Below, piece by piece: positions 8,069-50,346 of a DNA stretch of 64,000 bases. A model generated the notes under the pieces. That model ran no database searches. It saw only the letters and a program-made list of their open reading frames with translations, and was not told the DNA's origin. This DNA comes from Arenicola marina (Eukaryota; Annelida; Polychaeta; Arenicolidae). Made by a program: the position numbers and the translations under genes. The stretch's first letter is position 1, and each line of letters begins with the position of its first letter. The DNA lies in contig OZ025265.1 in assembly GCA_964019135.1 (NCBI GenBank), positions 22,481,143 to 22,545,142 on the forward strand, given 5' to 3'.

Positions 8069-8069
8069 A

Positions 8070-8240
8070 AGCCGGAAGGTCTACCTCCAAACGGGCAGGA
8101 TAAAGATCCCATGTCTTGCTTCGCAAAGAGTGGGGGGTTACCCCCGGGGACATGGCTCCACTCTCCCTTCCTTCTCCCATTGACGTGATGCGACCAAAAG
8201 TGGTTAAAGCGTCCTGAATATATAACCAACCAACCACCTT
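8070..8240 (+). mobile_element. SINE body and tail, 5'-truncated, copy A
   Basis: This matches the body and tail of the SINE at 25,522..25,796: it starts GGTCTACCTCCAAACGGGCA and ends in the ATATATAACCAACCAACC tail. The tRNA-derived head is absent. It is also present in unit B (35,879..36,046), so it predates the duplication. Confidence 0.75.
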
Positions 8241-8244
8241 CAAA

Positions 8245-9269: not shown

Positions 9270-9691
9270 CTAAAGCTTGCTCTTGGACGCTTGTTCTCTG
9301 AGCAGCCGTCGGAGCAGCTTGCCGCTGGGCAGCTTGGGGATGGCGTCCACAAAGATGACTCCCCCTCTCAGCCACTTGTAATAAGACGCACGCTCTGGAA
9401 AATAACATTATAGGGTTGGTGTCAACTTATCTTTTAGTTCAAAGTTAAAACCATTGACCTCCGCCTTGGTTATTTCTGGGATCATTGCATATGAGAGTTA
9501 TTTGGAAATTACTCTATTATTTCATGTAAATTTTCAGGCTGCACATAGATATCTGGGGTCGAGGGGGTGTATATGGTATTCATGGTTGAGTGATAGGCAG
9601 TGACTTCAAGTCAACGAAGACCGACAATCAGAATACAAGTACGCAAGAAAGCACATGCGTTTTATTTCCTTATGATGTCATTTCCCTCTTT

Positions 9692-9758
<67 letters not shown>

Positions 9759-15700: not shown

Positions 15701-18700
15701 ATGTATTTTTTATACCACTTTTCATGAATATTTACAGCGACAATTATTTCAGCCTGTGGTTGGCTCCGCCCGTCAGTTCATCAGTTGAGTTGTTGTCAAG
15801 TGTTTACTGATGTCAGATTGTCAACTCAGCGCCAAATCACTCGTTGACGATGTCTGCTTGTCAGTCACTGATCAAATTCATAGTGATCGGGTATTGTTGA
15901 GATTTAAGGTTAGTATTTTCATATAAAACCCGGTGTCAGTCATTGATCGAATTCATAGTGATAGGCTAATAGGGTATTGTTAAGATTGAAGGTTAGTATT
16001 TTCATATAAAACCCGGTGATCCTGCAGTTTCTGACCTCTTCTCTATTATCGCTCACACAAGCAGATACTTGACAGTTTGGGCTAATTTTGATCGTAAATT
16101 GCACTAAATTTGAAGTTTTACGCTTAAACTGTTAAAAGCTATTTACTTTTAAGGGCCCCAAAATAAGTATATCTAAACATGTTAGAAATAAGGCTAAGCT
16201 AACATGATTCTAAATCATCAAAATAAAACCTACACTCCAAATAATAGCAATAGACTTGAATAGTGATTTGAACTGTGAATATAACTGTCTTCTCTGTCCC
16301 TCCCCTCCAACCAAACATGTACCTTTTCTCACAAGCTGTATTCTCGGCTTACACTGTCACAATTAACACCAGACAATATCACAAGTATTCAACACCTGGG
16401 AGTGGAATTTTTTTCAGAATTTTTCACTCTCAGTCTGCATGGTACTTTGTCACATTAAAAAAATGCCCTCCGCCTCTGAAATGTACATTTTGAAAAGTTT
16501 ATTTGAGAGTAATTAATTAAACAAGAGATTTATTCCATATTGTTTACAGTTATTATTTTCTATTTTTGACACCTTTTGCTTTCTTTTGACACCTCAGGAT
16601 AGTTCGGATTTATTCATAAATATATATCACTCATATGTGGTTTAAAAAGAGTACCCAGTTATATTAAAGTTTCAAGTCGATTTATTCTATAGTTATATGT
16701 TTTAATTAATGCCATTATTACTATTTGTAATAAGATGCAGAATGTACTGGTAAGCTTATATATTTTATTTGCCGGAAGCCAATATTCCAATTTTTATGGT
16801 GTCCCGGTATAATAATATTCCTAGCCCAAAACGGGTTTTCCTGCCAGAAGAGTGTAGATTACCATTAGGCATTTTAAAACAATATAGCCCTTACAAATAT
16901 TTGTATATGCAGTTTATTTGGGTATGGAAATCAAGTATATCACCAGCCTTCTCATTGCATATATTGCTAGGATGTCAAAAACTAACCAAATACAGAATGA
17001 AATTCTCTAAACTCAACAGCCTCTCTTAAAATGTCAGGCTTCGAGTATATTTACAAAATGGTAGTACTTTGAAGATGTACTTTGTATTGTTAACCTCCCC
17101 TTGCTAACAAAGAATTAAGATTTTAATCAAAAAGGCCAATGAAACAACAATAATAGTTTTAATGGAAGTGATATAGGAACGTCCAATTAATATAATATTT
17201 TTTTTATGGACATGTTTAAACTTTTTGGTCAGATTGGGGCATTAGCTGTGGAAGGGTGTACTTTTCTTCTGAACTGAATTAGATTAATTATGAGTAAAAA
17301 AGTACTGGTAATATGATTAATTATAGGCCCAAGTAAGTACCTGGTACTGTATTCCTCTGGATATGATTCTAAGCCCAAATATTATCGCATGGATATTTTA
17401 ACAACTAAGCCCTCCATCAATTAAAAAACTCAATATATAAAAACATCATTTCTATAGATAGATAAGATATTTCAATATCCAGCTTTAAGAATATAAACTA
17501 CCGGTATTTCAGCTGATACAGCAGCTATAAGACTAGCTGCAGTTGGTACAACAGCTTTGACAATTACATTAATATTGAATGTGGGTGAGCTCGCAACTTA
17601 GGCAATGCCTATTCATATTAATATTGATCTCCAAAAATAATTGATGATATCAAAATAACACCAAAATAAGAACAGATATCCTGTACCACGCTTACCAAGG
17701 CTACGACCTCTCATAGAAGGATTGCTTAATCCCCCGGAGACATGGCTCCACTCTACTTTGACCCTTCCCATTGTCGCAATATGCCATATCAATCAACCAA
17801 CCGACCAACCTTGTCCTATAGCGGGATCGCGAAATAAAGTCTTGAACTCTTGTTCCGTTTCCTTCTTAGTGTTCCCACCGCCAGTAATGACGTAGCGGAT
17901 ACTGCTGACGTCATAGCGGGCGACCAATGGCGACTTGACCATGAGAACAATGAGCGGAGGCGGAAATGCCATCGATAGTGGCTGTAATAGGCCAAAGTAT
18001 AGGACCCTTATTATTGTCAAGGTCGCTGTAATAGGTCAAAGAACAGGACAGACATTATTGTCACCGCGGCTGTAATAGGCCAAAGTATAGGACCCTTATT
18101 ATTGTCAAGGCCGCTGTAATAGGTCAAAGCACAGGACAGACATTATTGTCACCGCGGCTGTAATAAGCCAAAGTACAGGACATACATTATTGTCAAGGCC
18201 GCTGTAATAGGCCAAATTACAGGACAAACATTATTGTCACCGTGGCTGTAATAGGCCAAAATACAGGACATACATTATTGTCACCGTGGCTGTAATATGC
18301 CAAAGTACAGAACAGACATTATTTTCACCGCGGCTGTAAAAGACCAACATGCAGGACCCTGATTATTGCCACATCGGATGTAACAGGCCAAAGTACATGG
18401 CTCCAATTATTGTCACGGCTGCTGTAATAGGTCAAATTACAGGACCCTGATTATTGTTACGGCGGCTGTAATAGGCCAAAGTAAAGACCCTGATTATTGT
18501 TACTGTGGCTATAATATTCAAAGTACGTGGCTCTAATTATTGTCTCAGCGGATGTAACAAGCCAAAGTACATGGCTCCAATCACTGTCACGACGGCTGTA
18601 ATAGGCCTAAGTACTGGACCCTGATTGTTGTCACTGTGGCTGTAATATTCAAAGTACATGGCTCAAATTATTGTCGTTGCGGCTATAATACTCATATCTT

Positions 18701-21580: not shown

Positions 21581-22980
21581 TTTCTGCCAATAGTCAAATC
21601 AAGGTCAAGGTCATGTTAATTGAATTTGGACACACGGTCACATTTGTTTGCAAGTGGACCAAGAAATTTATCTTGGGACGAGCAAATGGGGTAGGACAAA
21701 ACATGACCCAGGACTGCAGTTCACTCTGCTTACCAACTGAGCTAGTGCTGCTTTATAGGTAAATTGACTACACAAACAGTGTTTCCTTTAATCGTGAAAA
21801 TAGAAATGATATATTTATGTCCTTAAAGTTGCACATTGAGCTCTTTCCCGCCAAAACTAACGAGGTCAAAATGAGGTCTTTGAATCGTCCAAAATTTCTT
21901 TTGTCTATATTCCACGCTTGCCAGACCGCCAAATGGAGTCTCCTAGCTTTACCCGTGAGATCAATTTACCAGAGGTTTTCAGCTTAGTTGTAAACGTCAT
22001 CAGTTTGTGTGCTTCGCCATGCTTTGTTATGTTTAATAGGTTTCTGAATTCATAGAACAGTCGAGTTTTGTGCAAATTTTGATATATATATCGCCTGGGC
22101 TTAGATTTGGCGGGAAACGCTCGACAAGCAGCTATAAATATAATAAGGTCCTTACATACAAATATGTATGGTGCAATACATAAAAAGGCATGTTGGCTTT
22201 CTTGTGTAATACGTAATCAATTGTTCGGTATTGCTGCCGTATTTGAAAATGAAGGGCTGCGACAACATGTCTATCGCCCTGCAAACCTTCTGTTTTTTAA
22301 CTATTATAACTAGTTGAGCCTTTTCCGTGAATTGTGTTTGAGAATGGGGGAGTATGGGAATTTCCTTTTCGGTGTCGAGTTCCGTAGAACCCGCCTGGAA
22401 CAGTAGTGCCATGTGGTGAAGGCATCAGCCATGCGTAACAACGACAAAAGTCTGCCCGCCACGCGTGCATGATTTTGAATGGCTGGTATACGGAATTAGG
22501 CAATGATTTGAAAATAAGCAAACCTCCCCCATTGTCCTTCATCACTTGAAGATAACTTCTGAACCACTTTGAGATTATTCCATACTGGACTTGTGTATCC
22601 TATGTGATGCTATAACCTGATAACAGTGTCAGCCTTTCAGACCCGGGATGTCTGAAGGTCAGTGTTTGCATCGTGTGTTTTTATAGTTTCTGTAAGAGTT
22701 ACATAAGTGGCACGCGCAGCGAGGTGGGGTCGCTTGCTGATAACCCATCCGTTTGGAAGTCGGTTGGCGCGCAGTCTGAATTTGTGAACTGTTTAGACAC
22801 TTCCAGACACTTTGTCATGAATGTCAGTGTCTATTTTAGATGCCGTTTTTAACCACACATTTTTGTCACTGTCTAATGTAGATGCCTTTTTAACCCACAA
22901 ATTCTGTCATTGTTCATTTTAGATGCCTTTTTAACCAAAAAATTCTTTCTCAATGACCACAAAATCGGGCCCTTTTCTCT
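21581..22980. other. Upstream region of synthetase gene A
   Basis: This should contain the promoter and 5' UTR of the minus-strand synthetase gene, but no TATA box or other core element stands out. The part from about 22,315 to 23,150 is missing from unit B, where an AT-rich 45-bp stretch takes its place (about 50,303..50,347). No coding signal is seen. Confidence 0.45.
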
Positions 22981-29359: not shown

Positions 29360-29943
29360 CCTGGGAGACCGACCTTCCCCCCCAGCTGCACTATAACACT
29401 CTGAGCTCCTGGGAGACCGACCTTCCCCCCCAGCTGGACTGTAACACTCTGACCTCTTGGGAGACCGACCAGCCAACCAGCTGGATTGTAACACTCTGAC
29501 CTCCTGGGAGACCGACCAGCCAACCAGCTGGACTGTAACACTCTGACCTCCTGGGAGACCGACCAGCCAACCAGCTGGCCTGTAACACTCTGACCTCCTG
29601 GGAGACCGACCAGCCAACCCGCTGGACTGAAACACTCTGAGCTCCTGGGAGACCGGCCAGCCAACCAGCTGGACTGTAACACTCTGACCGCCTGGGAGAC
29701 CGACCAGCCAACCAGCTGGACTGTAACACTCTGACCTCCTGGGAGACCGACCAGCCAACCAGCTGGACTGTAACACTCTGTCCTCCTGGGAGACCGACCA
29801 GCCAACCAGCTGGACTGTAACACTCTGACCTCCTGGGAGACCGACCAGCCAACCAGCTGGACTGTAACACTCTGACCTCCTGGGAGACCGACCAGCCAAC
29901 CAGCTGGACTGTAACACTCTGACCTCCTGGGAGACCGACCAGC
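29360..29943. repeat. 47-bp minisatellite array B1
   Basis: About 12 units of the same 47-bp repeat as 2,150..4,645 start with two promoter-proximal CCCCCCC variant units. The array breaks off at 29,943 into sequence matching the IkB 5' intron (compare 1,485 onward). Confidence 0.95.
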
Positions 29944-30719
29944 CGATATAACGATATAACGTAAAAGAGAAGAAATAAATGAAACGAAAGCCAACTTGTC
30001 AACGCAATTGTTTAAACCATAACATGAATGCGATTTAGATATTCTTATTATTTTGTGGACCAGTATTTTATATTACTTATCACGATTAAATCCCCCATGT
30101 TAATGATGATCAAATGCATTGAACTCTTACAGCGGAACACATATACTTATACATATATATTGCATCTTCCATTCAACCATCGCTGTCAACTAAAACCTCA
30201 CTTAACATTGTCATCAATGCTATCACCAGTCATTACCACCACCATCACCATCCCCACCACGACCACCATACCCACCATACCCACCATCACCATCACCACC
30301 AGTATCACCATCGTCACCATAACTATCGCCATCACCATCACCATCAGCATATTAACACCAGTACCCCATTATCATCCCACCATCATCACCACCGTCACCA
30401 TTATCGCTGCCTCCCCCAACATGACTCCCATCACCATCACCACCGTCTTCACCATCAACCCCATGGTACCAGATGAACTAATCTGATTATCATGGTAATA
30501 ATTAGGAGTTGCTTATAATGAATATTATTACCATTTATCACACTCAGCTGAAAAACATAATGGCAAATCGGGTGTTTTTGCAGTTTCTGCCATAATCCCT
30601 ATTATCGCTCACACAAGAAAGATCATATCCCTATTATATATGCTTGACCCAAGCATATGCGCTTGAGCGATAATAGGGATCAGGTCAGAAACTGCTGGAT
30701 CACCGCAAATCGAAACTTT
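29944..30719. other. Duplicated 5'-intron segment with CAT/CAC microsatellite
   Basis: 29,944..30,105 matches 1,485..1,635 of the IkB 5' intron. About 30,229..30,480 is a degenerate (CAC/CAT)n tract. 30,580..30,695 is a more complete copy of the palindromic foldback element, with both outer arms (GCAGTTTCTG and CAGAAACTGC). The 30,110..30,590 stretch is absent from copies A and C. Confidence 0.7.
30580..30695. repeat. Palindromic foldback element, fullest copy
   Basis: The nested arms are GCAGTTTCTG...ATCCCTATTATCGCTCA on the left and TGAGCGATAATAGGGAT...CAGAAACTGC on the right, with an inner palindrome ATGCTTG-ACC-CAAGCAT. This copy defines the extent of the element seen truncated at 1,635, 60,060, 16,016 and 43,844. 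Confidence 0.75.
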
Positions 30720-31080
30720 TTGTCAGCGTTTGATATTGATATAGTTTATGGCTATCCATGAATGCCTGATCATATATTGCAGTGAACGCACAGTACAGCT
30801 GATAAACATATCATTACTTACCCAAGGCGTGCCTCAAATGGACATAAACTGCACCCCAATGACAGACTAGAATTTCCGCCTGCAGTATCTTCCTGGGAAG
30901 ACAACCATACAATATATCAGTAATATTGTAAGCTCCGCACATATTATGGCAATAAGGAGCGCCCTCTGTCGGTGGTACGCACTTCAGCGAGGCGTTATTA
31001 CGTTGTGTATTCCCGGCATAAAAAGACAATGTGAAACTTGGGAAATCCCACGGAAAGCCCCACGTCAGCAATCCGACTTA
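30720..31080 (-). pseudogene. Orphan IkB-like promoter and first exon, remnant B2
   Basis: This is a second copy of distal intron 1, the first exon (donor intact, exon end 30,822) and the promoter. Both kappaB-like sites are intact: GGGAAATCCC at 31,040..31,049 and GGAAAGCCCC (plus strand) at 31,052..31,061. No coding exon follows downstream on the minus strand before the 29.9-kb array, so it is a promoter without its gene. Confidence 0.7.
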
Positions 31081-31104
31081 CCGCTGAGCGTTTCACAGCG
31101 CCAT

Positions 31105-33328
31105 AGCCTGGGAGACCGACCTTCCCCCCCAGCTGCACTATAACACTCTGAGCTCCTGGGAGACCGACCTTCCCCCCCAGCTGCACTATAACACTCTGAG
31201 CTCCTGGGAGACCGACCTTCCCCCCCAGCTGGACTGTAACACTCTGACCTCCTGGGAGACCGACCAGCCAACCAGCTGGACTGTAACACTCTGACCTCCT
31301 GGGAGACCGACCAGCCAACCAGCTGGACTGTAACACTGTGACCTCCTGGGAGACCGACCAGCCAACCAGCTGGTCTGTAACACTCTGACCTCCTGGGAGA
31401 CCGACCAGCCAACCAGCTGAACTGTAACACTCTGACCTCCTGGGAGACCGACCAGCCAACCAGCTGGACTGTAACACTCTGACCTCCTGGGAGACCGACC
31501 AGCCAACCAGCTGGACTGTAACACTCTGACCTCCTGGGAGACCGACCAGCCAACCAGCTGGCCTGTAACACTCTGAGCACCTGGGAGACCGACCAGCCAA
31601 CCAGCTGGCCTGTAACACTCTGAGCACCTGGCAGACCGGCCAGCCAACCAGCTGGCCTGTAACACTCCGACCTCCTGGGAGACCGACCAGCCAACCAGCT
31701 GGACTGTAACACCCTGACCTCCTGGGAGACCGACCAGCCAACCCGATGGACTGTAACACTCTGAGCACCTGGGAGAACGGCCAGCCAACCCGATGGACTG
31801 TAACACTCTGAGCTCCTGGGAGACCGACCAGCCAACCAGCTGGACTGTAACACTCTGACCTCCTGGGAGACCGACCAGCCAACCCGATGGACTGTAACAC
31901 TCTGAGCTCCTGGGAGACCGACCAGCCAACCAGCTGGACTGTAACACTCTGACCTCCTGGGAGACCGACCAGCCAACCAGCTGGACTGTAACACTCTGAC
32001 ATCCTGGGAGACCGACCAGCCAACCCGATGGACTGTAACACTCTGACCTCCTGGGAGACCGACCAGCCAACCAGCTGGACGGTAACACTCTGAGCTCCTG
32101 GGAGACCGACCAGCCAACCAGCTGGACTGTAACACTCTGACCGCCTGGGAGACCGACCAGCCAACCCGATGGACTGTAACACTCTGAGCTCCTGGGAGAC
32201 CGACCAGCCAACCCGCTGGACTGTAACACTCTTAGCTCCTGGGAGACCGACCAGCCAACCAGCTGAATTGTAACACTCTGACCTCCTGGGAGACCGACCA
32301 GCCGACCAGCCGGACTGTAACACTCTGACCTCCTCGGAGACCGACCAGCCAACCCGATGGACTGTAACACTCTGACCTCCTGGGAGACCGACCAGCCAAC
32401 CCGATGGACTGTAACACTCTTAGCTCCTGGGAGACCGACCAGCCAACCAGCTGGACTGTAACACTCTGACCTCCTGGGAGACCGACCAGCCAACCAGCTG
32501 GACTGTAACACTCTGAGCTCCTGGGAGACCGACCAGCCAACCCGATGGACTGTAACACTCTTAGCTCCTGGGAGACCGACCAGCCAACCAGCTGGACTGT
32601 AACACTCTGACCGCCTGGGAGACCGACCAGACAACCAGCTGGACTGTAACACTCTGAGCTCCTAGGAAACCGACCAGCCAACCAGCTGGACTGTAACACT
32701 CTGAGCTCCTGGGAGACCGACCAGCCAACCAGCTGGACTGTAACACTCTGAGCACCTGGGAGACCGACCAGCCAACCAGCTGGACTGTAACACTCTGAGC
32801 TCCTAGGAGACCGACCAGCCAACCCCCTGGACTGTAACACTCTTAGCTCCTGGGAGACCGACCAGCTAACCAGCTGGACTGTAACACTCTTAGCTCCTGG
32901 GAGACCGACCAGCCAACCAGCTGGACTGTAACACTCTGAGCTCCTGGGAGACCGACCAGCCAACCAGCTGGACTGTAACACTCTGAGCTCCTAGGAGACC
33001 GATCAGCCAACCAGCTGGACTGTAACACTCTTAGCTCCTAGGAGACCGACCAGCCAACCAGCTGGACTGTAACACTCTTAGCTCCTGGGAGACCGACCAG
33101 CCAACCAGCTGGACTGTAACACTCTGAGCACCTGGGAGACCGACCAGCCAACCAGCTGGACTGTAACACTCTGACCTCCTAGGAGACCGACCAGCCAACC
33201 CGCTGGACTGAAACACTCTGACCTCCTGGGAGACCGACCAGCCAACCAGCTGGACTGTAACACTCTGAGCTCCTGGGAGACCGACCAGCCAACCAGCTGG
33301 ACTGTAACACACTGTAACACTCTGAACA
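31105..33328. repeat. 47-bp minisatellite array B2
   Basis: About 47 units of the 47-bp repeat start with three CCCCCCC variant units at the promoter side. It ends with the same CTGTAACACACTGTAACAC junction into the 176-bp satellite as array A. The long minus-strand open frames here (up to 488 codons) are the same 47-residue cycle and are not counted as genes. Confidence 0.95.
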
Positions 33329-35080: not shown

Positions 35081-35878
35081 TTGGGTCTTGAGCTGTTTTA
35101 AGTTCGTCTTTGAGTCTGTGGTGTTCATTATCTACTAGCAATTGACTGAATTATAGCAGCGCAGGAATGTATTTTGGGCTTAATGTTCTGTGAACTTTTG
35201 CTGGTTGCTGTCTCCTTGGGTTTGAGATTAATAATACTAACTCACGCATTACGCTGCCCCGTAGTTTAATCCCGTATTATAACTATGCATAGTGGCGATG
35301 CGAGCTATTCGGTGCTGCAGTAACGGTGCTGCACTACAATTACGCCCCACCCCTCTTCGTCCTCCCAAGAACTACGACGTGTGTGACATACTGAACCACA
35401 TGATCAAACTGCACAATTTGTTCTGTTTCGGACAGATCAGATTTCGGTTACTAAAGTCACTTTGCATCATAAAGCAAAACTAAGAATCATCAGTCATATG
35501 ATAACACTGTTAATCTGAGTGATATAATTATCCGTGTAAATGGTACGTTTTATTACAGTTAAACATTTAATAGTTGGAGTCTTATTCTCCAACTTTCATT
35601 CAAACATTTATATCTCTTAGTAATACCAATACCAGTGAAATTTTCGTAACAGATGATAAGATGACAATATTAATGTCGATAACTATTTCTGACCGTGTTG
35701 TAAAATCTCACCCAAAAGGCCTTTATAAAAAGGACATTCGTAAACAGTGTTCACACTTGACACTTCAGTTTCAGATATTCATGATAATGTTCTATAATGA
35801 TACAATTATTGAATGAAACATTGAATGCGTTAGCCCAAAAATCATTTGCAACAATACGAACACGTACTGTTAACAAGC

Positions 35879-36046
35879 CGGAAGGTTTACCTCCAAACGG
35901 GCAGGATAAAGATCCCATGTCTTGCTTCGCAAAGAGTGGGGGGTTACCCCCGGGGACATGGCTCCACTCTCCCTTCCTTCTCCCATTGACGTGATACGAC
36001 CAAAAGTGGTTAAAGCGTCCTGAATATATAACCAACCAACCACCTT
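35879..36046 (+). mobile_element. SINE body and tail, 5'-truncated, copy B
   Basis: Counterpart of 8,070..8,240 with the same truncation point and AACCAACC tail. Confidence 0.75.
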
Positions 36047-36049
36047 CAA

Positions 36050-37090
36050 ACGGACGTCCTGTTCTTCGCAAATTCTATCACAATATAAATCGGGACAAGT
36101 CTATCATACATTTACTAGTCTATTAATATGTTTTATTGTTATAGCTTTCCTAAACGATGGGACAGGAGTGAGAACCATAGGGCCGACTCCGCCTCTTACC
36201 ACTTTCTGCTGATGCAAAGTTGCGATTTCCTAATTATCCGATACAATTGATATATGATCAAGCTTTTCTGAGGAAGTGATTTAACATCCGCCGCTCTATC
36301 CGAATGCGACATCTCTGTACACACACCTTGTCAATTGTTCTATTAAATTATTACACAATATAAGGTCATAACTTAATGGAATTACTTTTTTCGCATTACC
36401 AGTAAACGTTATTCTCCACACAGAACAAATTCCGCGACCTACTCTAGCGAGACATCCGTAAATAGCATCAGATCATAGTATCTCAAATGTTATTTCCCAA
36501 CCCAAACAATCTCGGTCTTATCGACGTCCAGCCACAAACATAACAAGTAAACATAACAATTCCTCCGTGATCTTTATCACACTTCAAAATATTTTTTCTC
36601 AATCACTCCATGTTGATCCCCAAGAGTGTCCTTAAAATTGTCATAGTGAAAAAACTATACATAGCGGGCGCTTTAATCTTTGCTTGGTACGTGGATAATA
36701 TTTGACACAGATATACATATCACAAATAAACCATATGCGTAAGCAACATCTGACACAAATGTACATCCTTCAAAAGACAGGTGTGCGTAATTTTTAACTA
36801 GCATAATTAAAGATTTATGGCAGCGCTACTTTGACCACATTATCGTCGATATTTTGCTAAGTACAGAAGGCATCTTCGTGGCACTATATTTGTGAAACAC
36901 AAAGTTGATTCAAACAAGAAACTGGGTGTCGCGCCCGACATCATTTCAGCGAAGCTTTGAATGTTTCCTGTATGTCGTTATCTCAGAAGATAACAAAAAC
37001 CACGCATCCACTCACATTTGGAAACGCGTAGTACATGATGCCCACCACATGCAGAATGGTTTATATATATATTCTAGTCTACCCTTAAGT
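36050..37090. other. 3' flank of synthetase gene B; nothing recognised
   Basis: AT-rich, nearly identical to 8,245..9,269. No polyadenylation signal was placed with confidence. Confidence 0.5.
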
Positions 37091-40000
37091 CTAAAGCTTG
37101 CTCTTGGACGCTTGTTCTCTGAGCAGCCGTCGGAGCAGCTTGCCGCTGGGCAGCTTGGGGATGGCGTCCACAAAGATGACTCCCCCTCTCAGCCACTTGT
37201 AATAAGACGCACGCTCTGGAAAATAACATTATAGGGTTGGTGTCAACTTATCTTTTAGTTCAAAGTTAAAACCATTGACCTCCGCCTTGGTTATTTCTGG
37301 GATCATTGCATATGAGAGTTATTTGGAAATTACTCTATTATTTCATGTAAACTTTCAGGCTGCACATAGATATCTGGGGTCGAGGGGGTGTATATGGTAT
37401 TCATGGTTGAGTGATAGGCACTGACTTCAAGCCAACGAAGACCGACAATCAGAATACAAGTACGCAAGAAAGCACATGCGTTTTTTTTCCTTATGATGTC
37501 ATTTCCTTCCTTCTTACATATATATCTGATTAACCCTTTCTATTTATGCAGTGTAACTCAGGTATGTAAGCAGGCGGTCACAGGAGAATAACTCGGGGCT
37601 ACACTTCATTAGGAGCGTCACCAATTGTTTAGCGGGCGGGAACGATGACGCTTAGAGAGCTATTTGTGACGCGTCATTACATATTATACAGTTAAAACAG
37701 AACATCAAGGGTTGATGTGAAATTTTAGAAGGGGCGAGAGGGGTGGGGGTCCATTTTTTGGCCGAATGAGCTCCCCGTAACAATACTTACTACCGACAGG
37801 AGAGTCTACACTAAAACACGCTTGAACTAAGTCTACAAAATAAGGTTCACAGTCTGAACATCCTGCCTTACCCTCACTGCCCCACCCCCCGCCTCCCACC
37901 ACACTCACACCCCCTGGAGGAATTTGTGATGAGATCCAGGCTGACATCCAAATATGTTGTAATATGTTCTAATATGACATAGATGTTCCGTTGTAAGCTA
38001 TCATTTTGATATTTGAGTGCGGGTGAAGGGAAAACTACTTGTCGTTTTGGTTTTACTGAACACGATGTCTCGTGCCTACCCCCCGCGCAAACCCCCCCGC
38101 CCTCCACCCCACCCCCCACCTCACCCCTAGATCATTGTCTACCTTGTACGAAGTCCGCGATGTCCTTCTCCGTGACCTTGTTCCCTGGCTGTCTGACCAC
38201 GTAGGCCCGGGGCAGCTCGCCCGCCATCTTGTCTGGGACGCCAATCACACACACGTCGGCTACATCCGGGTGTTCCAGGATCATCGCCTCCATCTCTGCT
38301 GGCGCCACCTAACGACAAGCAATCCGATTAAACATTAAATTTAGTAAAAGGTGAAAAGTGAAGCTGGCATTACTAATACTTAATATGATACCGTCAGACG
38401 TAAAAGATTCCCACCTTCCTCAGGCGCTTTATTGGAATAATAATACTGTAACGATGCTTGCTAGACATGTCCAGAAGAACGTGTATCTATTTTTAAGGTT
38501 GTTTCATGACTGTATTTGGCAACGCTGGTGAACACCATGTGGCGCGTACCTGGAATGCTTTGTACTTGATGAGTTCTTTGATCCGATCCACGATGTAGAA
38601 GTAACCGTCATCGTCGTAATATCCAATATCACCTGACAATCCATAAAATCATTCACAGGGTCAAAAAGCCATTGCTAAGCCTTACATTAGTAAGTACATT
38701 AGTCAATAGTCAAGTTTGAAGTGCTGAAACCAGATAATCACTGTGTAACAAATCATCTCTCTGTAAGTTGCAAATTTCGATGTGAGATCTTAGATATGGA
38801 TGACAGCGAAACTGGAGTGTGCACGACAACGGGTCTGAAGTCTCACGATATATTTAAATGGAATGCCGATATCTCTGAAGACTTTAGCTTGCATGTTTCA
38901 GAGTCTATAGACTCTATAGAGTCTATAGTGAGTTTGAAAGCATATTTAATGAATATTGCAATACAAATAACACAGACGAGCTCGTCAAACAGATAGTCGA
39001 TACTCTGCAGCTCAGTGGGAGTGCGATGCCTAGACCAGCCAGGCGTACAAAAATGAGAGTACGCGTACAGCAGAGTCAGCCTGAGTGGTGGGATGCAGAC
39101 TGCAGTCGCGCAAAGCAACACAAACTAGATATATGCTGGACCTCTTTCGCGTTTCAAATTCGCAAGATTATCCTAAGGAATATAAGGGAGCTCGAAGAAT
39201 ATTTAAAAACTTTTGTAAAAGTATAAAGCTACTACATGCACGGGCCTTACGGAAGTCATTGATAGATAGCTGTGCCGAATGTACTACCTTGTGGCGTTGT
39301 ATCCAGCGATTGAACAGTAACAGTAGGAGTATTTCTAGCATCAAACCCGAAGAATGGAAAGAATACTTCGCAAATCTATTAAATGTGCCGACTGCGAAAA
39401 CAGATTCTGTTTTTTTAGAAAGAGGTTTTATCCACCCTAGATGATCATGATAATGTATGTATTAAGTGTGATGTTGAACAGGTAGAGAGTTTGGAAAGAG
39501 ATCGTGTGAATAGAGTTTTTGATGCTGAGGAAATACTAGGTTGTATATGACCAATGGCAAAGCTGCAGGTTACGACGCAATACCGAATGAAATGTTGAAA
39601 GGGGTTGCCAAACTGTTGTTACCATATCTTGTTCGACTGCCTAATCTGATGCTGGAAACGGGGAAATTTCCGAAAGACTGGTGTAAAGCCCTGATATTGC
39701 CGCTAAATAAGAAAGGATCACGGTCTGACATGGGAAATAATAGAGGTATATCCTTATTGTCTGCCCTCAGTAAGCTATTCACAAAATTAATCAACGAGAG
39801 ATGAACTGTATGTATGGGTCGACCAGAACGAGTTACGGTCAGAAGAGCAGGCGGGATATAGAAAAGGATATTCGACTTGCGATCAAATATTTGTCTTATA
39901 GTCCATAATTCAAAAGTATGTAACGAAAGAGAAAGGCACGTGTTTTATCCTTTTTATTGATTTTTCAAAGGCCTTCGACAGCATGCCTCATAGTCTGTTA

Positions 40001-43000
40001 TAGTTTAGTCTACTAGGTAAAGGTATTCATGGTAATATAATGACGGTTATTCGCGATATGTACGCTAACTTGAAATCATGTATTAAGACTCATTCTAGTC
40101 TCTGGCTGTTTTTTGCTTTATATATAGAAGAGTATTTATCCATGTTATCAAATTCTAACTGCCCAGGTATCTGCGTAAGCAATGATGCCCCAAACATAAT
40201 ATCCCTCATGTTTGCCGATGATTTAGCAAACTGCGCGGATACTGTAGGACGTCTCCAGCTAACGATAAATATCTTAGAGGCATATTGTAGGAAGTGGAGT
40301 TTAAAAGCGAATATGAACAAAACGCAAGTAATGGTATTTCAGAGAGGAGGAATAGTTAAAGCAAATGAACGATGGTTTTTCAATGGTGAACGGTTGAAAG
40401 TTGTATGGTCGTATAAATATTGAGGGTTAGTATTAACTAGCACACTCAGATGGTCGAAAGCTGTTTCTACATTGACTGGTCAAGCCAACACGGCATTGGC
40501 CTCTATCTACAAGATTGATAAGAAACTCAACGGTCTACCTATAGAAGCAGCATTTACTTGATTTGATCGAATTATTGTGCCAATTCTCACGTATGGAGCC
40601 GACATCTGGGGTTATCAAGAGTATAAGAAAATCGAGAAAGTCCAAGTTAGGTTTTGTAAAATATTATTGGGACTACCGAAGTCAACATCGGACGCCGCCG
40701 CATTAGGTGAATGTGGCAGGTTACCTTTAGGAAAAATTTACAATTTTAAGTGTATTAAGTACTGGTTAAAGATATTACGGATGCCAAATAATAGGTATGT
40801 CAAAAGCTGTTATAACATTTTTAAAGAATTTGACAAAGTATATCATCCTGGGCTAGCTCAGTGAAGGCTCTGTTGCATAAATATGTATTTAATGATGTAT
40901 GGATAAACCAATCAGCGTATGACAAAAGTTTGCTGAGCTAAACCAGAGATTAGAAACCTGTTTCATTGAAGAGTGGCTTATGAAGGTTAGCGATCAAAGT
41001 CGCCTTAGTGTATTTTGTACAGTTAAGGTCCAACTCTCCTTGGACTTAGAAACTCTCTTTCGTGTTTTAGATGCTCAGCTCATAGCCTCTCTATTGAATT
41101 AGGTCCCTGTGATGGAACGTTACTGGAAAACATAATTTGTAAATACTGTGCTGTAAGACATGTCGTTGTTATAGAAGATGAATACCACGTGTTATTGTGC
41201 TGCCCGAAGTTCATGGATATCAGACTCTTATATATAGAAACCGCTTTTTGTGATCCCCCAACATAGGGAACTTTATTATTTTGATATCAAGTGGAGATAT
41301 GTTTACCCTAAGAAAATTAGCGATGTTTGTGCATACTTTAGAAAAACGTGTCCGTGCGCAGCCGTAAATTTAAGAATACGGAAACTATATTATTTTGTGA
41401 CAAATGTATTTATGTTCATTGTTATGTCCCATGGGCCTGAAGGCCTTTGGGCAAATAAATAAACTACCTACTACATAAAAAAGGATAAGTTATTATGGGT
41501 TCAACGTATGCGATATTCTGTATATTTGAATATATTATATTATGAATATATTATGAATATAATATGTTTCATTATCAACTACTCAATGAAGCGCTATGGT
41601 GTATCGCGGGGAGTAGGGGGGGGGGGCGGGTAGACAGTCATAAGAGCAAGAAACTATGTAGAAGTATCTTCATGGAGATAAGGTAAACAAAAACCGGCGT
41701 TAGGGAGGAAACTCAAGAAAAAACATTGTGGAAATTCATGCGGTTAAGAGATTATGGAGAGTTTTAGAGTAAGACTGATAGTCCTCAATGCTAAGAGAAT
41801 AACATCGTGGATATATTCCCTAGGCTAAGAGAAAGAACGTAATTGAATTTCATGATGACAAAGTATTATTAAGGATCGCCAAGGGGCGAAGAGAAAGGAA
41901 CACATGGTTTGTTATCTGTGGCCTTCTAAGGCTGTGTGTGAACAGCGCGTCTCTTGACCTACCTGTGTGGACCCATCCCTCCTTGTCTATGGTCTGGGCC
42001 GTGGCCTGCGGGTTGTTGAGGTACCCCATCATAACATGAGGACCTCTCAGGCAGATCTCACCCCGCTGGTCCGGGGCCAGCATCACCCCACTGTCGGGAT
42101 TAATCACCTGTCCAGGGGTAGAGAGGACATAGCTATGTATCATAGAGTGATTAGTTGGACGAATTAGCCTCTATCGGTCATATGGCGATAGTGGGAAGTG
42201 TCAATGTAAAGAGTAACGCTAGAACGCTAGAACTTCTGTAGGCCATATCCTTTAGGTTGTGTGTATACTCAGGACGCCTTAACCAGTTGTGGTCATTGGT
42301 CTGTGACCCTCTGGATATAACTCCCCCACCCCCCCCCCCCCCTGGATATAAAATGGTCCATAAATACGCATGGTCTTCGTAATTATATCGCGTTCTAAAA
42401 ATAGCCCTGACCTTTGCCTCGCCCCCGGGGATCACCTTGCCGACACTCCCCGATTTGATATGGCCGTCTTGGATTGTCTTCGCGACAACGGCACCGCTGG
42501 TTTCAGTCATGCCGTAGGCTACAATGTAATAATAATATTAATAATAATATTAATAATATTAACAATAATATTAATAATATTAACAATAATATTAGTAATA
42601 TTAATAATAATATTAATAATATTAATAATAATATGAATAATATTAATAATAATATTTCTAATGCCTGTTTAGTACGAAGGTAAAATTATATATAAATTCC
42701 TGCCTGGTACCTGGCCAACGATACAGTCCATATAACTAGGCTGGTTCCAGCGAACATATCGGTTCCCGGCTCCAAGCGTGCTGTGGAATTTCTGCGGAAT
42801 GTATGTTTTGCGGTATCGAGCTTGCAAGACCATACTGTCGACTGGCTGGTTCCTGGCCCCAAGCTAGAAAGTCTATCCTGTCGACTGGCTGGTTACTGGC
42901 CCCAAGTTAGATAGTCTATCCTGTCAGCTGGCTGGTTCCTGGCCTCAAGTTAGAATGTCTATCCTGTCGACTGGCTGGTTCGTGGCCCCAAGTTAGAAAG

Positions 43001-46000
43001 TATATCCTGTCGACTGGCTGGTTCCTGACCTCAAGTTAGAATGTCTATCCTGTCGACTGGCTGGTTCCTGGCCCCACGTAACAAAGTCTATCCTGTCGAC
43101 TGACTGGTTCCTGGCCCCAATTTAGATAGTCTATCCTGTCGACTGGCCGATTCCTCAAGTAAAAATGTCTATTTCGTCGACGTATACGAATAGAAACAAG
43201 AAGAATAAGAAAAAAAATAGTGTTTGGCTTGCCATACATTGTCATACTATACGATACAAAAAAAAAATCGACATCCGCGCGTCATGGCCGCGATCACAGG
43301 CGATAATAGGGGCCAGTTAAGTGTCGTAAAGCTGAAGTAAAAATGACACTCTTCCCGCGACTGGCGGAACGCCGTCTGGTGGGAGATCGACGTTTGCAAA
43401 CGCGCCAGTTCCTGACTCAAACTCGTTTTTTTGTTGTTGTTATTTGTCATATAAGAAACTTGAACTTTTATTTCTTGTTTAAAAGTCATGCGTTTAATGT
43501 CAACTGATTTCCAATATAAGTAGATTGATGTATTTTTTATACCACTTTTCATGAATATTTACAGCGACAATTATTTCAGCCTGTGGTTGGCTCCGCCCGT
43601 CAGTTCATCAGTTGAGTTGTTGTCAAGTGTTTACTGATGTCAGATTGTCAACTCAGCGCCAAATCACTCGTTGACGATGTCTGCTTGTCAGTCACTGATC
43701 AAATTCATAGTGATCGGGTATTGTTGAGATTTAAGGTTAGTATTTTCATATAAAACCCGGTGTCAGTCATTGATCGAATTCATAGTGATAGGCTCATTTG
43801 GTATTGTTAAGATTGAAGGTTAGTATTTTCATATAAAACCCGGTGATCCTGCAGTTTCTGACCTCTTCCCTATTATCGCTCACACAAGCAGATACTTGAC
43901 AGTTTGGGCTAATTTTGATCGTAAATTGCACTAAATTTGAAGTTTTACGCTTAAACTGTTAAAAGCTATTTACTTTTAAGGGCCCCAAAATAAGTATATC
44001 TAAACATGTTAGATCTAAGGCTAAGCTAACAGGATTCTAAATCATCAAAATAAAACCTACACTCCAAATAATAGCAATAGACTTGAATAGTGATTTGAAC
44101 TGTGAATATAACTGTCTTCTCTGTCCCTCCCCTCCAACCAAACATGTACCTTTTCTCACAAGCTGTATTCTCGGCTTGCACTGTCACAATTAACACCAGA
44201 CAATATCACAAGTATTCAACACCTGGGAGTGGAAATTTTTTCAGAATTTTTCACTCTCAGTCTGCATGGTAATTTGTCACTTTAAAAAAATGCCCTCCGC
44301 CTCTGAAATGTACATTTTGAAAAGTTTATTTGAGAGTAATTAATTAAACAAGAGATTTATTCCATATTGTTTACAGTTATTATTTTCTATTTTTGACACC
44401 TTTTGCTTTCTTTTGACACCTCAGGATAGTTCGGATTTATTCATAAATATATATCACTCATATGTGGTTTAAAAAGAGTACCCAGTTATATTAAAGTTTC
44501 AAGTCGATTTATTCTATAGTTATATGTTTTAATTAATGCCATTATTACTATTTGTAATAAGATGCAGAATGTACTGGTAAGCTTATATATTTTATTTGCC
44601 GGAAGCCAATATTCCAATTTTTATGGTGTCCCGGTATAATAATATTCCTAGCCCAAAACGGGTTTCCCTGCCAGAAGAGTGTAGATTACCATTAGGCATT
44701 TTAAAACAATATAGCCCTTACAAATATTTGTATATGCAGTTTATTTGGGTATGGAAATCAAGTATATCACCAGCCTTCTCATTGCATATGTTGCTAGGAT
44801 GTCAAAAACTAACCAAATACAGAATGAAATTCTCTAAACTCAACAGCCTGTCTTAAAATGTCAGGCTTCGAGTATATTTACAAAATGGTAGTACTTTGAA
44901 GATGTACTTTGTATTGTTAACCTCCCCTTGCTAACAAAGAATTAAGATTTTAATCAAAAAGGCCAATGAAACAACAATAATAGTTTTAATGGAAGTGATA
45001 TAGGGACGTCCAATTAATATAATATTTTTTTTATGGACATGTTTAAACTTTTTGGTCAGATTGGGGCATTAGCTGTGGAAGGGTGTACTTTTCTTCTGAA
45101 CTGAATAAGATTAATTATGAGTAAAAAAGTACTGGTAATATGATTAATTATAGGCCCAAGTAAGTACCTGGTACTGTATTCCTCTGGATATGATTCTAAG
45201 CCCAACTATTATCGCATGGATATTTTAACAACTAAGCCCTCCATCAATTAAAAAACTCAATATATAAAAACATCATTTCTATAGATAGATAAGATATTTC
45301 AATATCCAGCTTTAAGAATATAAACTACCGGTACTTCAGCTGATACAGCAGCTATAAGACTAGCTGCAGTTGGTACAACAGCTTTGACAATTACATTAGT
45401 ATTGAATGTGGGTGAGCTCGCAACTTAGGCAATGCCTATTCATATTAATATTGATCTCCAAAAATAATTGATGATATCAAAATAACACCAAAATAAGAAC
45501 AGATATCCTGTACCATGCTTACCAAGGCTACGACCTTTCATAGAAGGATTGCTTAATCCCCCGGAGACATGGCTCCCCTCTACCTTGACCCTTCCCATTG
45601 TCGCAATATGACATATCAATCAACCAACCGACCAACCTTGTCCTATAGCGGGATCGCGAAATAAATTCTTGAACTCTTGTTCCGTTTTCTTCTTGGTGTT
45701 CCCACCGCCAGTCAAGACGTTGCGGATACTGCTGACGTCATAGCGGGCGACCAATGGCGACTTGACCATAAGGACAATCAGCGGAGGCGGAAGTGCCATC
45801 GATAGTGGCTGTAATAGGCCAAAGTATAGGACCTTATTATTGTCAAGGCCGCTGTAATAGGTCAAAGCACAGGACAGACATTATTGTCACCGCGGCTGTA
45901 ATAAACCAAAGTACAGGACATACATTATTGTCACCGTGGCTGTAATAGGTCAAAGCACAGGACAGACATTATTGTTACCGCGGCTGTAATAAGCCAAAGT

Positions 46001-49000
46001 ACAGGACATACATTATTGTCAAGGCCGCTGTAATAGGCCAAATTACAGGACAGACATTATTGTCACCGTGGCTGTAATATGCCAAAATACAGGACATACA
46101 TTATTGTCACCGTGGCTGTAATAGGCCAAAGTACAGAACATACATTATTGTCACCGTGGCTGTAATATGCCAAAGTACAGAACAGACATTATTGTCACCG
46201 CGGCTGTAATAGTCCAACGTGCAGGACCCTGATTATTGCCACATCGGATGTAACAGGCCAAAGTACATGGCTCCAATTATTGTCACGGCTGCTGTAATAG
46301 GTCAAATTACAGGACCCTGATTATTGTTACGGCGGCTGTAATAGGCCAAAGTAAAGACCCTGATTATTGTTACTGTGGCTATAATATTCAAAGTACGTGG
46401 CTCTAATTATTGTCTCAGCGGATGTAACAAGCCAAAGTACATGGCTCCAATTATTGTCACGACGGCTGTAATAGGCCTAAGTACTGGACCCTGATTGTTG
46501 TCACTGTGGCTGTAATATTCAAAGTACATGTCTCAAAGTATTGTCGTTGCGGCTATAATACTCATATCTTGGTGCCCCATATCTATTCATAGCATGTCAG
46601 ATCAGATGAATGATGAAGCGTTGTTACATTATTATATGGAGTATATTGGGATGTTGTGTCCCGAGATATTGTTTTAGTACAACAGAGTTTGTTTCAATTC
46701 TTCTGTAATGCGATATGTCATGGTGCTGTACGAACCCTGCATAAAAACATGGAAATAAAATATATAAATTAAAAAAGAAAATGCTGTACGAACCTTGTAC
46801 TTTTCGATAGCCGCGAGAACTTGCTCGAAGTCAAATTTAGGGAACATGACTTGCTGGACGCCGTGAACAAACCTGGCGAATCCACCGTCGGCGAGACCCG
46901 CTATGTGGTACATAGGGAAGCAAGCGATATTTGTTTTCCCCTCGGGAATAACGTCTGCCATGGCGATTAACTCCGCCACGATGTTCCGGTGAGAGAGGAC
47001 GACGCCCTTGGGGGGTCCCGTGGTGCCGCTGCTGAACAGAATCAGGGCCGGCCAAGTGGCCGTGTCCGTGGTCCTGTCCCACTCAGCGTCCCGCCACTCT
47101 CCGGGGTGCGACTGCAGTGACGTCAGCGTGACGTCATCGTCAGCGCCGCCCGCCACGTTGTGGTCATTATCGCTGATGATGACTTGAATCTGAATTAATT
47201 GGATGGAAAGAATATAGTAAAATTAAGAATAGTAATATATATATACATATATATATGTAACAGGACTGTATCTTGTATTGTCATGTCCATTCTCGCAGCA
47301 TGCATGATTCCTCTATCGAAGAACGATTCATTGTGTCAGAATATCACATCCGAAACTGGACAAGCGCTTAAGTCCCATTCTGTTCACTGTCGGACTTCAT
47401 TGACTCACTAAATATGTAGTTATATCCCCCCAATATAAATTTGCATCACAGCTGGAGCTCATTCACAAGTTCCACCGCGCAACTAAGATAAAATATCCTC
47501 TTTACCTGCTGGTCACCCATATTGATAGCCTCTCTGACAACCGGAAGTAGCTGCGGCTCCGTAAATACAAAACGGGGTCGAAGGTCCCTGAGATAATGCT
47601 TCAGCTCGTCTGCAAAAACAAGCCACGGATAAGCGTGATTTCACTGATAACAAACTAATCATTGAGAGATTAATAAGAGATGAAGCATTTCTTAGTGGTC
47701 CGAATAATACGGTTGACTTGAGCATGACCATCTCCAGGCATGGTATGCATATCTCCGATTCGTTTTCTTTGAGAAACATTAAGGATAGGTTGTTAAGAAT
47801 AATCTATTAGAGTGAGTGAAGCAATTTTAATTATATTAGTGTAAGTAACCAATGGGAGTATTGATCATCGTGTTGTTTTATTTGTTTAACGATTGGGCCA
47901 AATCTCCGTGCCGTTGCCTAGTATTTTACTTCCGCTTTTCCTGATTGTGAGTTGTTTTTGAGCGAAAAAACTTCCGCTGTATTAACTAATATATAAGTAG
48001 ATGAAAATAAGCCTGACAATAACGCTAGGCTTACATTAATGGAATCCACGAACGGTATTGCATGTAACCGACATTTATGTACATCTTGAACAAAGCTCAC
48101 ACCCCTCCTGATGTTTCTGCTGTTTTGTATACCAACAGAAAAAATAAGACCTTGATCTTCATATTCCTAATGACACTTTAGAATAATGACCTTGACCCCC
48201 AATGACGCTTATCGAAGCCGAATGATCTTGACCCCCAATGACACTTATAGAAGCAGAATGACCTTGACCCCCAATGACGCTTATAGAAGCAGAATGACCT
48301 TGACCTACATGCGGTGCTGGCCGGGTTGAGGGTGCTGACTGTCCCTCCAGCCATCAGAGCCCCGTACATCACACACAGGAAGTCCGCAGAATTCGTCTTC
48401 AGGAACGCTATGGTGTCACCCTTGCGCATCCGCAGTTTGTTCTGTAGACCGTTGGCCGTTCTGTTCGAAATATCGCAGATGTCGTTAAAGGTGTATGTGC
48501 GACCATTTCCCTTGTCAATCTGCGAACAAGAAAATGCTAGCAGCGTAAGACTTTCACGTGTATTAGCCTATATTCTGTATTGCCTGGCCCTGTTTGAACA
48601 TACCCATCGTAACGGAAAGCATGTGTCATAATATTAAAAAGAATACAACAATATTAAAGATTTGACTCAAATATCATTTAAATATTAAGAGATACTACGA
48701 AGAATTTGAAGAGCGTCAGTGTATGTTATGTTGAAGATTGTTATTATTATGTCATTTAATATTTGATGTCTATCAGTTAAAACGAACAAAAAAAACATAT
48801 ATATCACCAAATGTATGAGCTGCTTTGAAATAAGATGGTATATACCATAATAATATACATTCATTATATCTCTTAATACTTTATAGAAAAAAATACCTGA
48901 ACAATTTTGGCACTCCAATAATAATATGTTAATTGTTACTACAGCAGATAATATCAATAAATAATGTTTACCCATGAAAAAAAAAATATGAGAGGATGAA

Positions 49001-49428
49001 CCAAATTTTTCATTTGATCGTTCTCATGGTATGAGGAAAACAGCCACGAAATAGAGAATCGCATATAAATACATGTTGTTTTGAAGAGAAAAGCGATTAG
49101 TTAAAGAAAATGCAATACTAAACATGTATTCCTGTCTTCATTTGAGAAGAGGGGGGCGGTAGTGTAATTCAGCAAGAGTCAGTGTTAAAGTGGGGTTCTC
49201 CAGAATAGGAGGATGCAGTCGTATCCATGTCCTCGGTCGGCGTACGTTGTCATCCTCTCCTCATTATTGCTCCTCTGACTGCACTGCTCCAGTCACAATA
49301 AAACCATGTGATAATCTAGTACCTACCACACACGTCTTATTGCCATGTTTTCGGCCCTCTGAGATGACGTATTGGTGAACAGGTACATCCGGGACCTTCA
49401 GGGGTGGACCTCGTAACACGCGCGCCAT
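37091..49428 (-). CDS. 4CL/luciferase-like peroxisomal acyl-CoA synthetase, copy B (10 exons)
   Basis: The minus-strand exons in reading order are 49428..49327, 48519..48309, 47609..47506, 47189..46794, 45808..45637, 42518..42412, 42107..41963, 38632..38550, 38308..38143 and 37215..37091. Every exon has the same length and phase as in copy A, giving 536 residues ending in SKL. All core motifs ([38 protein letters not shown]) are unchanged. By eye exons 6 to 10 are identical to copy A, while exons 4 and 5 carry about ten amino-acid changes. These include HLAGL to [14 protein letters not shown] to [12 protein letters not shown] to GKT, NILAE to NIVAE, and IRYVITGGG to IRNVLTGGG. The changes lie between the P-loop and the YGMTE motif, the part that forms the acyl pocket in this family. 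Both copies appear functional; a shift in substrate is possible but unproven. Confidence 0.95.
38729..41480 (+). mobile_element. Broken, 5'-truncated LINE in intron 7 of synthetase B
   Basis: Counterpart of 10,930..13,675. It keeps slightly more sequence: a T-run and an 8 to 9-bp segment near 40,110 and 40,165 are intact here and shortened in unit A. The palm piece around [18 protein letters not shown] (near 40,210) is therefore in one 127-codon frame. It is otherwise broken by the same stops as unit A, and is inactive. Confidence 0.85.
42524..42657. repeat. AAT/AATATT microsatellite next to the exon 6 acceptor, copy B
   Basis: Counterpart of 14,703..14,836, directly upstream (in gene sense) of exon 6. 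Confidence 0.9.
42837..43165. repeat. 43-bp minisatellite in intron 5 of synthetase B
   Basis: Counterpart of 15,016..15,345 with about the same unit number. Confidence 0.9.
45558..45637 (+). mobile_element. SINE tail abutting the exon 5 donor, copy B
   Basis: Counterpart of 17,731..17,810. The (AACC)n-type tail again forms the intronic side of the exon 5 donor. Confidence 0.7.
45806..46560. repeat. 44-bp minisatellite containing the exon 5 acceptor, copy B
   Basis: About 17 units. The same core as 17,979..18,690, with the first unit providing the exon 5 acceptor. Copy number and internal variant order differ slightly from unit A. Confidence 0.85.
48186..48307. repeat. 36-bp repeat abutting the exon 2 donor, copy B
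   Basis: Counterpart of 20,329..20,450. Confidence 0.8.
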
Positions 49429-50346
49429 TTTCTGCCAATAGTCAAATCAAGGTCAAGGTCATGTTAATTGAATTTGGACACACGGTCACATTTGTACGCA
49501 TATGGACCAAGAAATTGGTCTTGGGACGAACAAATGGGGTTGGACAAAACATGACCCAGGACTGCAGTTCACTCTGCTTACCAACTGAGCTAGTGCTGCT
49601 TTATAGGTAAATTGACTACACAAACAGTGTTTCCTTTAATCGTGAAAATATAAATGATATATTTATGTCCTTAAAGTTGCATATTGAGCTCTTTCCCGCC
49701 AAAACTAACGAGGTCAAAATGAGGTCTTTGAATCGTCCAAAATTTCTTTTGTCTATATTCCACGCATGCCAGACCGCCAAATGGAGTCTCTTAGCCTTGC
49801 CCGTGGGATCAATGTACCAGAGGTTTTCAACTTAGTTGTAAACGTCATCAGTTTGTGTGCAAATAAGAATCAGTCTTTGAATCGTCCAAAATTTCTTTTG
49901 TCTATATTCCACGCTTGCCAGACCGCCAAATGGAGTCTCCTAGCCTTACCCGTGAGATCAATTTACCAGAGGTTTTCAGCTTAGTTGTAAACGTCATCAG
50001 TTTGTGTGCTTCGCCATGCTTTGTTATGTTTAATAGGTTTCTGAATTCATAGAACAAAACAGTCGAGTTTTGTGCAAATTTTGATATATATATCGCCTGG
50101 GCTTAGATTTGGCGGGAAACGCTCGACAAGCAGCTATAAATATAATAAGATCCTTACATACAAATATGTATGGTGCAATACATAAAAAGGCATGTTGGCT
50201 TTCTTGTGTACTACGTAATCAATTGTTCGGTATTGCTGCCGTATTTGAAAATTAAGGGCTGCGACAACATGTCTATCGCCCTGCAAACCTTCTGTTTTTT
50301 TACTATTATAATATAATATGGTATATAATATAATGGTATATAATAT
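49429..50346. other. Upstream region of synthetase gene B
   Basis: Expected to hold the promoter, but no core element is evident. A 149-bp direct duplication is present only here: AATCGTCCAAAATTTCTTTT starts at 49,731 and again at 49,880. About 840 bp present in unit A (22,315..23,150) is replaced by a short TATAATATGG-rich stretch near 50,310..50,347. Confidence 0.5.

Follow-up and report, generated by a model that had tools for sequence, protein, structure and literature searches.

Exons 4 and 5 of tandem acyl-CoA synthetase genes in Arenicola marina: an older diverged patch probably left by repeated exchange in a four-gene array

Two tandem genes for 4CL/luciferase-like acyl-CoA synthetases, here called copy A and copy B, were compared in a 64,000-nucleotide window of the genome of the polychaete Arenicola marina (assembly GCA_964019135.1, contig OZ025265.1, contig positions 22481143-22545142; label C20). 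Unless contig positions are named, all coordinates are those of the window. In the same 867-Mb genome, a mitochondrial contig carries nad3, tRNA-Ser, nad2, cox1, tRNA-Asn, cox2, tRNA-Asp, atp8, tRNA-Tyr, tRNA-Gly, and cox3 in this order, which corresponds to the annelid ground pattern; its protein genes other than cox1 were named by reading, and a tRNA search with the bacterial code gave none. In the four-gene array to which A and B belong, repeated non-allelic exchange has probably left the contrast between them in exons 4 and 5 as an older diverged patch. The patch does not mark a site at which protein change has been accelerated. Copy B was a mosaic in its relation to the other copies, with a breakpoint at the left edge of the diverged block; the introns in the block were as diverged as the exons, and the ratio of replacement to synonymous divergence (Ka/Ks) was below 1. 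The process is an ordinary, known kind of concerted evolution. A literature search found no title on an annelid synthetase array or on synthetase conversion, which is not proof that none is in print.

Exons 6-10 of A and B showed 0 differences in 626 nt, which confirmed the reading of the initial annotation. Its estimates for exons 4 and 5, about 23 differences and roughly ten protein changes, were close to the 22 differences in 568 nt (12 in exon 4 and 10 in exon 5) and the 11 replaced codons counted here. The motifs that it named, including the IRYVITGGG region, were also read correctly, and its interval of 45637-47189 has as its limits exactly the lower boundary of exon 5 and the upper boundary of exon 4 in copy B. 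Exons 1-3 contained 6 differences in 417 nt, 2 of which were replacements, and exons 4 and 5 held 11 of the 13 A-B replaced codons. The longest coding run without a difference comprised 655 of 1611 sites and is not a chance effect: when the 28 differences were shuffled 100,000 times, a run of this length arose once.

The divergence between A and B in 250-bp bins was about 1% over 37.7-45.5 kb, jumped to about 5%, dropped near 47 kb and was up again at 48.0 kb and beyond 48.75 kb. A two-state hidden Markov model (HMM) of the A-B alignment, with rates of 1.0 and 5.0% and twice the log-likelihood difference (2 delta lnL) at 102.6, identified seven tracts of high divergence. Two of them, 45516-46230 and 46504-46998, covered exon 5, parts of intron 4 and the 3' part of exon 4, and the low stretch between them (46231-46503) was within a minisatellite. 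Together they define the divergent block of copy B (45516..46998), which runs from the end of intron 5 through exon 5 and the whole of intron 4, including the minisatellite there, into the 3' part of exon 4 and whose counterpart in copy A is 17689-19127. One further tract covered exon 1, and four of the seven tracts (36274-36690, 37417-37690, 47987-48143, and 49718-49860) were without any exon of the gene. The HMM also delimited a low-divergence block at 37691..45515, where A and B differed by 0.94% (73/7763) and which contains exons 6-9, and an adjacent low block at 36691-37416 with exon 10 (4/726).

Within 45516-46992, A and B differed at 20/371 exon sites, 21/353 intron sites outside the minisatellite and 25/708 minisatellite sites. 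The divergence of exons and introns was alike (P=0.75), which rules out a change specific to the exons. Moreover, 10 of the 12 differences of exon 4 were within 46794-46998, the 3' part of this exon. Given that the edges of the block are in intron 5, 121-178 bp past exon 5, and inside exon 4, its near-coincidence with exons 4 and 5 is a matter of breakpoints.

Self-comparison of the window revealed a tandem segmental duplication with 96.8% identity over 14805 columns. The aligned core of the duplicated unit is at 7338..22012 for copy A and at 35144..49860 for copy B, both on the plus strand. With the block as a DNA query against the same genome, four full-length tandem matches were found at contig positions 22467331 (copy 0), 22498815 (copy A), 22526642 (copy B), and 22564793 (copy C). 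Copies 0 and C are just outside the window, one on each side, and are thus potential exchange partners on the same contig. In the four-copy alignment, built after 60 kb had been added on each side of the window, the aligned exons of all four copies contained full-length frames of 536 codons. That introns share the peak of divergence, that this peak reaches into exon 4 no further than its 3' part and that two more paralogues exist outside the window was not visible to the initial annotation.

In copy 0 (window coordinate -13503), the acceptor of exon 5 is AA instead of AG and the frame is otherwise open. The Ka/Ks of its exons 6-10 was 0.70 against A and B and 0.35 against C. Judged from these features, copy 0 may be mis-spliced or decaying.

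Arrays of a 47-bp minisatellite were found at the unit junctions. The array at 2144-4634 (52.9 units) precedes A, and those at 29360-29944 (12.4 units) and 31107-33314 (46.9 units) are at the A-B junction (29360..33314). Copy C is also preceded by such an array, at about 67810-70375 outside the window, whereas no match of at least 300 bases was listed left of copy 0. Unequal exchange could plausibly take place at these junction arrays, which precede A, B, and C. A 2.1-kb stretch with 99% identity (1-2113 and 58424-60538) also flanks the units, once in the 0-A interval and once in the B-C interval.

The relations among the four copies changed along the units. Over 41.5-45.5 kb, A and B differed at 30/3997 sites and 0 and B at 172/3905, the latter partly from about 44.25-44.35 kb, where copy 0 carries other sequence. 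Over 45516-46998, the differences were 26/1483 between 0 and B, 64/1439 between 0 and A, 66/1438 between A and B, and 1/1439 between A and C; B was nearer here to copy 0 than to either A or C. Copies A and C differed at only 22/9442 sites over 38.75-48.25 kb, and 0 and A at 5/2054 over 48.1-50.3 kb. At individual sites, B agreed with A and not with 0 at 91 sites and with 0 and not with A at 11 sites over 41.5-45.5 kb, and the respective numbers for 45516-46998 were 7 and 31. This switch in the nearest relative of B was significant (Fisher test, 2e-15; maximum chi-square, 0 of 2000 permutations as large), with the break between 45459 and 45516. These counts leave out the minisatellite and 44.0-44.5 kb; with them they were 156:15 and 12:52. 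Moreover, 156 informative sites fell into 14 runs compared with 79 expected (0 of 20,000 shuffles). Thus, the hallmark of gene conversion, contiguous tracts that include introns and that change in similarity and in nearest relative, was observed.

The same distances bear on three other explanations. Plain duplication of the pair 0 and A into B and C without later exchange was rejected, since it does not account for the similarity of B to A in 41.5-45.5 kb; the 47-bp array left of B, with no match of at least 300 bases listed left of 0, also misfits it. A mutation hot spot at the minisatellite of intron 4 could have raised the divergence around exons 4 and 5, and the block is indeed centered on this minisatellite. 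However, divergence would then be elevated in every pair of copies, whereas the divergence between 0 and B was lower in the block (26/1483) than over 41.5-45.5 kb (172/3905) and A and C differed at a single site there (1/1439). The pairwise distances therefore oppose it, and its probability is close to nil. Finally, it is very unlikely that the array is an assembly artefact in which haplotypes or collapsed reads were joined in tandem, so that the copies are alleles or chimaeras. The pairwise similarity of 0 and A with B and C, the near identity of A and C over 9 kb and a scaffold gap of 200 N between B and C (window coordinate 64384-64583) would agree with such an artefact. The window, however, is without any N and A and B are therefore on one unbroken sequence, the unit junctions are unlike in length and content, and the divergence is mosaic, whereas that of alleles would be uniform. 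Because the gap precedes C, claims that use C are weaker than those from 0, A, and B.

The minisatellite of intron 4 has a 44-bp unit and occupies most of this intron, with 17.2 units in copy B (45807..46560) and 16.2 units in copy A (17980..18690). Its unit consensus contains the motif TATTACAG, and the last unit of the array carries the splice acceptor of exon 5. On the minus strand of intron 4, TATTACAG was found 14 times in B and 12 times in each other copy. A literature search for a splice acceptor borne by a minisatellite was without a match, which is not proof that none is in print.

Non-allelic homologous exchange, by gene conversion and perhaps unequal crossing-over, would have repeatedly copied tracts between the units. 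Over 41.5-45.5 kb, which contains exons 6-7 and most of intron 5, B would have been homogenized with the A/C lineage. In the 1.5-kb block of exons 4 and 5, B would have kept, or received, the type of copy 0, and A and C would share the other type. Around exons 1-2, A would have been homogenized with 0, and left of 41.5 kb, where the copies are all close, the history is probably mixed. The A-B contrast in exons 4 and 5 would then be an unhomogenized remnant or an imported tract with the older divergence of 4-5% between two lineages. Conversion as distinct from crossing-over, the direction of the transfers and remnant as distinct from import are inferences. Of the two alternatives offered by the initial annotation, local conversion was supported by the mosaic with two other copies, the edge of the block inside exon 4 and the equally raised divergence of the introns.

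Several observations weigh against this history. The unrooted split between 0,B and A,C was constant over 41.6-48.0 kb (71 consecutive informative sites); the switch is therefore one of branch lengths and of the rooted relation. Support for the mosaic comes from distances and presupposes that neighboring kilobases of intron mutate alike. Over 38.9-41.5 kb, B sided with 0 against A at 18 sites and with A against 0 at 13, and the divergence between 0 and B was 0.2-0.6% in 39-40 kb. The respective numbers of sites for 35.7-38.9 kb were 18 and 51. Because the relation left of 41.5 kb is mixed and the copies are all close around exons 8-10, B is sharply A-like for exons 6-7 only. The identity between 0 and B in the block was 98.2%, so an exchange between them there was not recent. 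All comparisons are within a single genome, and the ages of the tracts would need a second species. In addition, the raw 0/626 of exons 6-10 differed from 86/7721 in the introns (P=0.003) before constraint was allowed for. This local intron rate predicts 1.6 synonymous changes in exons 6-10, for which the probability of observing none was 0.20; it fell to 0.04 when replacements at an omega of 0.3 were included. An extra cause for an unusual identity of exons 6-10 was thus unneeded once constraint was allowed for.

The other alternative of the initial annotation, diversifying selection that fixed replacements in exons 4 and 5 faster than neutral changes, is extremely unlikely. By the Nei-Gojobori method (NG86), the Ks, Ka, and Ka/Ks of exons 4 and 5 were 0.072, 0.031, and 0.42, respectively. 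That ratio exceeds the 0.15 of exons 1-3, and together with 11 replaced codons in 568 nt it would be in line with such selection, as would the rate of in-block replacements (12/291), which was not significantly below that of the neighboring introns (21/353; P=0.37). However, the ratio is below 1, the introns are equally raised, and the 13 replacement and 9 synonymous changes of exons 4 and 5 deviate from the neutral expectation of 77:23 in the purifying direction (one-sided P=0.049). For the 125 in-block codons, the Ks, Ka, and Ka/Ks were 0.101, 0.042, and 0.42, respectively (one-sided P=0.060). Neither a Ka/Ks above 1 nor a replacement rate above the intron rate was found in exons 4 and 5. 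Introns as diverged as the exons, without an excess of replacements, are what the initial annotation itself had named as grounds for refutation. Given that the replacement rate was not significantly below the intron rate, constraint in the block is weak or the power of the comparison is low; there is no excess of replacements in the block, yet strong constraint is not established. When a paralogue on C13 was used as outgroup for codons 157-328, 18 sites separated 0/B from A/C, of which 7 were derived in A/C, 3 were derived in 0/B and 8 were undecided. No clear one-sided burst was found by this polarization of the 18 sites.

Both genes are on the minus strand, copy B at 37091..49428 and copy A at 9270..21580, and each has 10 exons, 536 amino acid residues and a C-terminal SKL. 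Copy B was spliced by hand at GT-AG sites; GT-AG was found at 9/9 introns in both copies, and the exon lengths were identical. From exon 1 to exon 10, the exons of copy B are at 49327-49428, 48309-48519, 47506-47609, 46794-47189, 45637-45808, 42412-42518, 41963-42107, 38550-38632, 38143-38308, and 37091-37215, and those of copy A are at 21479-21580, 20452-20662, 19649-19752, 18923-19318, 17810-17981, 14591-14697, 14149-14293, 10751-10833, 10344-10509, and 9270-9394. Intron 7 of both copies (38900-41460 and about 11100-13650) contains on its plus strand, by reading of the sequence, a candidate decayed reverse-transcriptase element similar to long interspersed nuclear elements.

Domain scores were obtained for copy B, which matched PF00501 (AMP-binding; E 2.8e-80, 270.4 bits, cut-off 29.9) and PF13193 (AMP-binding_C; E 2.6e-19, 70.3 bits, cut-off 24.5). 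Its best solved relatives, all with near full-length matches, were poplar 4CL (3a9u, E 4.5e-107), an ancestral beetle luciferase (6k4c, E 1e-106) and Drosophila CG6178 (7kyd, E 5.2e-103). The top NCBIfam match, a long-chain-fatty-acid--CoA ligase subfamily, was below its cut-off (377.8 vs. 476 bits). The translations contained the P-loop (SSGTTGxPKG), the core motif around D-R-x-K with C-terminal lysine, and PKLPSGK, as in the ANL superfamily; for copy B these were aligned to 4CL. As judged from sequence, A and B are 4CL/luciferase-like acyl-CoA synthetases of this superfamily with predicted ligase activity. Firefly luciferase ends in SKL, and with 4CL, beetle luciferase and CG6178-type synthetases they share the AMP-binding and C-terminal domains and, where the end of luciferase is concerned, SKL. 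In these synthetases SKL is presumably a peroxisomal signal, which suggests a peroxisomal location. Different from 4CL, they form an animal tandem family, in which Tyr236 and Lys303 of Pt4CL1 are replaced by Ala236 and Ile/Leu/Met303; the substrates of plant 4CL are therefore not implied. Related genes are also clustered elsewhere: at least 5 exon-4 matches of related synthetases at 24865597-24944668 of the same contig, and at least 7 AMP-binding matches at 10.95-11.06 Mb of C14, with long open frames and apparently from single-exon genes.

The initial annotation had regarded exons 4 and 5 as pocket-forming. Published substrate-site positions include 236, 306, 331, 337, and 338 of Pt4CL1 (as cited in PMC4916118), 239, 243, 306, 308, 309, 332, and 334 of Pp4CL1 (PMC5239791) and, among others, 245, 247, 251, 316, and 317 of luciferase (PMC5495494). 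They were mapped by sequence alignment and offsets, with minus 3 for Pp4CL1 and, for luciferase, numbering by a shared motif. The pocket codons thus mapped to exons 4 and 5 were 234, 236, 240, 303, 305, 306, and 307. Pocket codons 331, 338, and 339 (Pt4CL1 331, 337, and 338), however, are in exon 6 and identical between A and B, so the description holds only in part. Only 1 of the 11 replaced codons (303) was on the seven pocket positions (P=0.35), and 2 of 11 (235 and 303) were within one residue of them (P=0.21); this test supersedes one with six positions, without that of luciferase Ala317 (P=0.31 and 0.19). Codon 235 adjoins the position of pocket Tyr236. Codon 303, which aligns with Lys303 of Pt4CL1, encodes I in A and C, L in B, and M in 0; mutation of Met306 of Pp4CL1, its equivalent by offset, alters substrate use (PMC5239791). 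No enrichment at pocket positions was detected in this mapping by sequence, and one or two of the changed residues could matter.

A divergence peak between otherwise homogenized copies can also be a sign of selection acting against conversion (PMC3924837, PMC2588116, PMC3728101, and PMC3924832). Under this Teshima-Innan type of barrier, selection would keep two pocket types and the peak, introns included, would persist at exons 4 and 5. Equal intron divergence alone does not exclude it, because synonymous and linked sites rise too in that model. The types 0/B and A/C alternate along the array, the A-B replaced codons are concentrated in exons 4 and 5 (11 of 13), and codons 303 and 235 are at or beside published substrate positions. 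The C13 paralogue has the 0/B residues I235 and A244, which suggests that L235 and F244 arose in A/C, and the pattern is known from opsins (PMC3924837) and from a pair of Drosophila transporters (PMC2588116). We nevertheless consider such a barrier unlikely. Equally high peaks (4-8%) were found in non-coding DNA, pocket positions were not significantly enriched, the Ka/Ks was 0.42, and C13 has Ile at 303 like A/C, so the changes are not all one-sided. A peak centered on functional replacements with low surrounding non-coding divergence was not found, as introns (21/353) and exons (20/371) were alike, whereas the introns flanking the opsin peak stay low (PMC3924837).

Similar to exon 5 of the human red/green opsins and to Drosophila CG18281/CG17637, the synthetase genes are homogenized duplicates with a local peak that includes protein changes. 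Different from those cases (PMC3924837 and PMC2588116), the introns here are as diverged as the exons, the other peaks are non-coding and one species was compared. High and low divergence also alternate between the paralogues GOT1p1 and GOT1p2 of Tigriopus californicus, in which, as presumably here, exchange of diverged tracts yields new protein combinations (PMC3728101); several populations were compared there, and one genome with four copies here.

There is a small chance that the array holds two alternating specificities, 0/B and A/C, in which selection holds the block apart, conversion continually erases the differences around it, and the pocket block moves like a cassette among synthetases that are nearly identical elsewhere. 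If true, the array would amount to a natural pocket-swap system for these enzymes, from which candidate specificity residues could be read directly. With repeated non-allelic exchange, which we regard as the probable history, the array would be a clear four-copy case in which the marks of conversion on paralogues resemble those of selection on individual exons. It is also a warning that contrasts between exons of young duplicates can mislead unless the introns and the other array members are considered.

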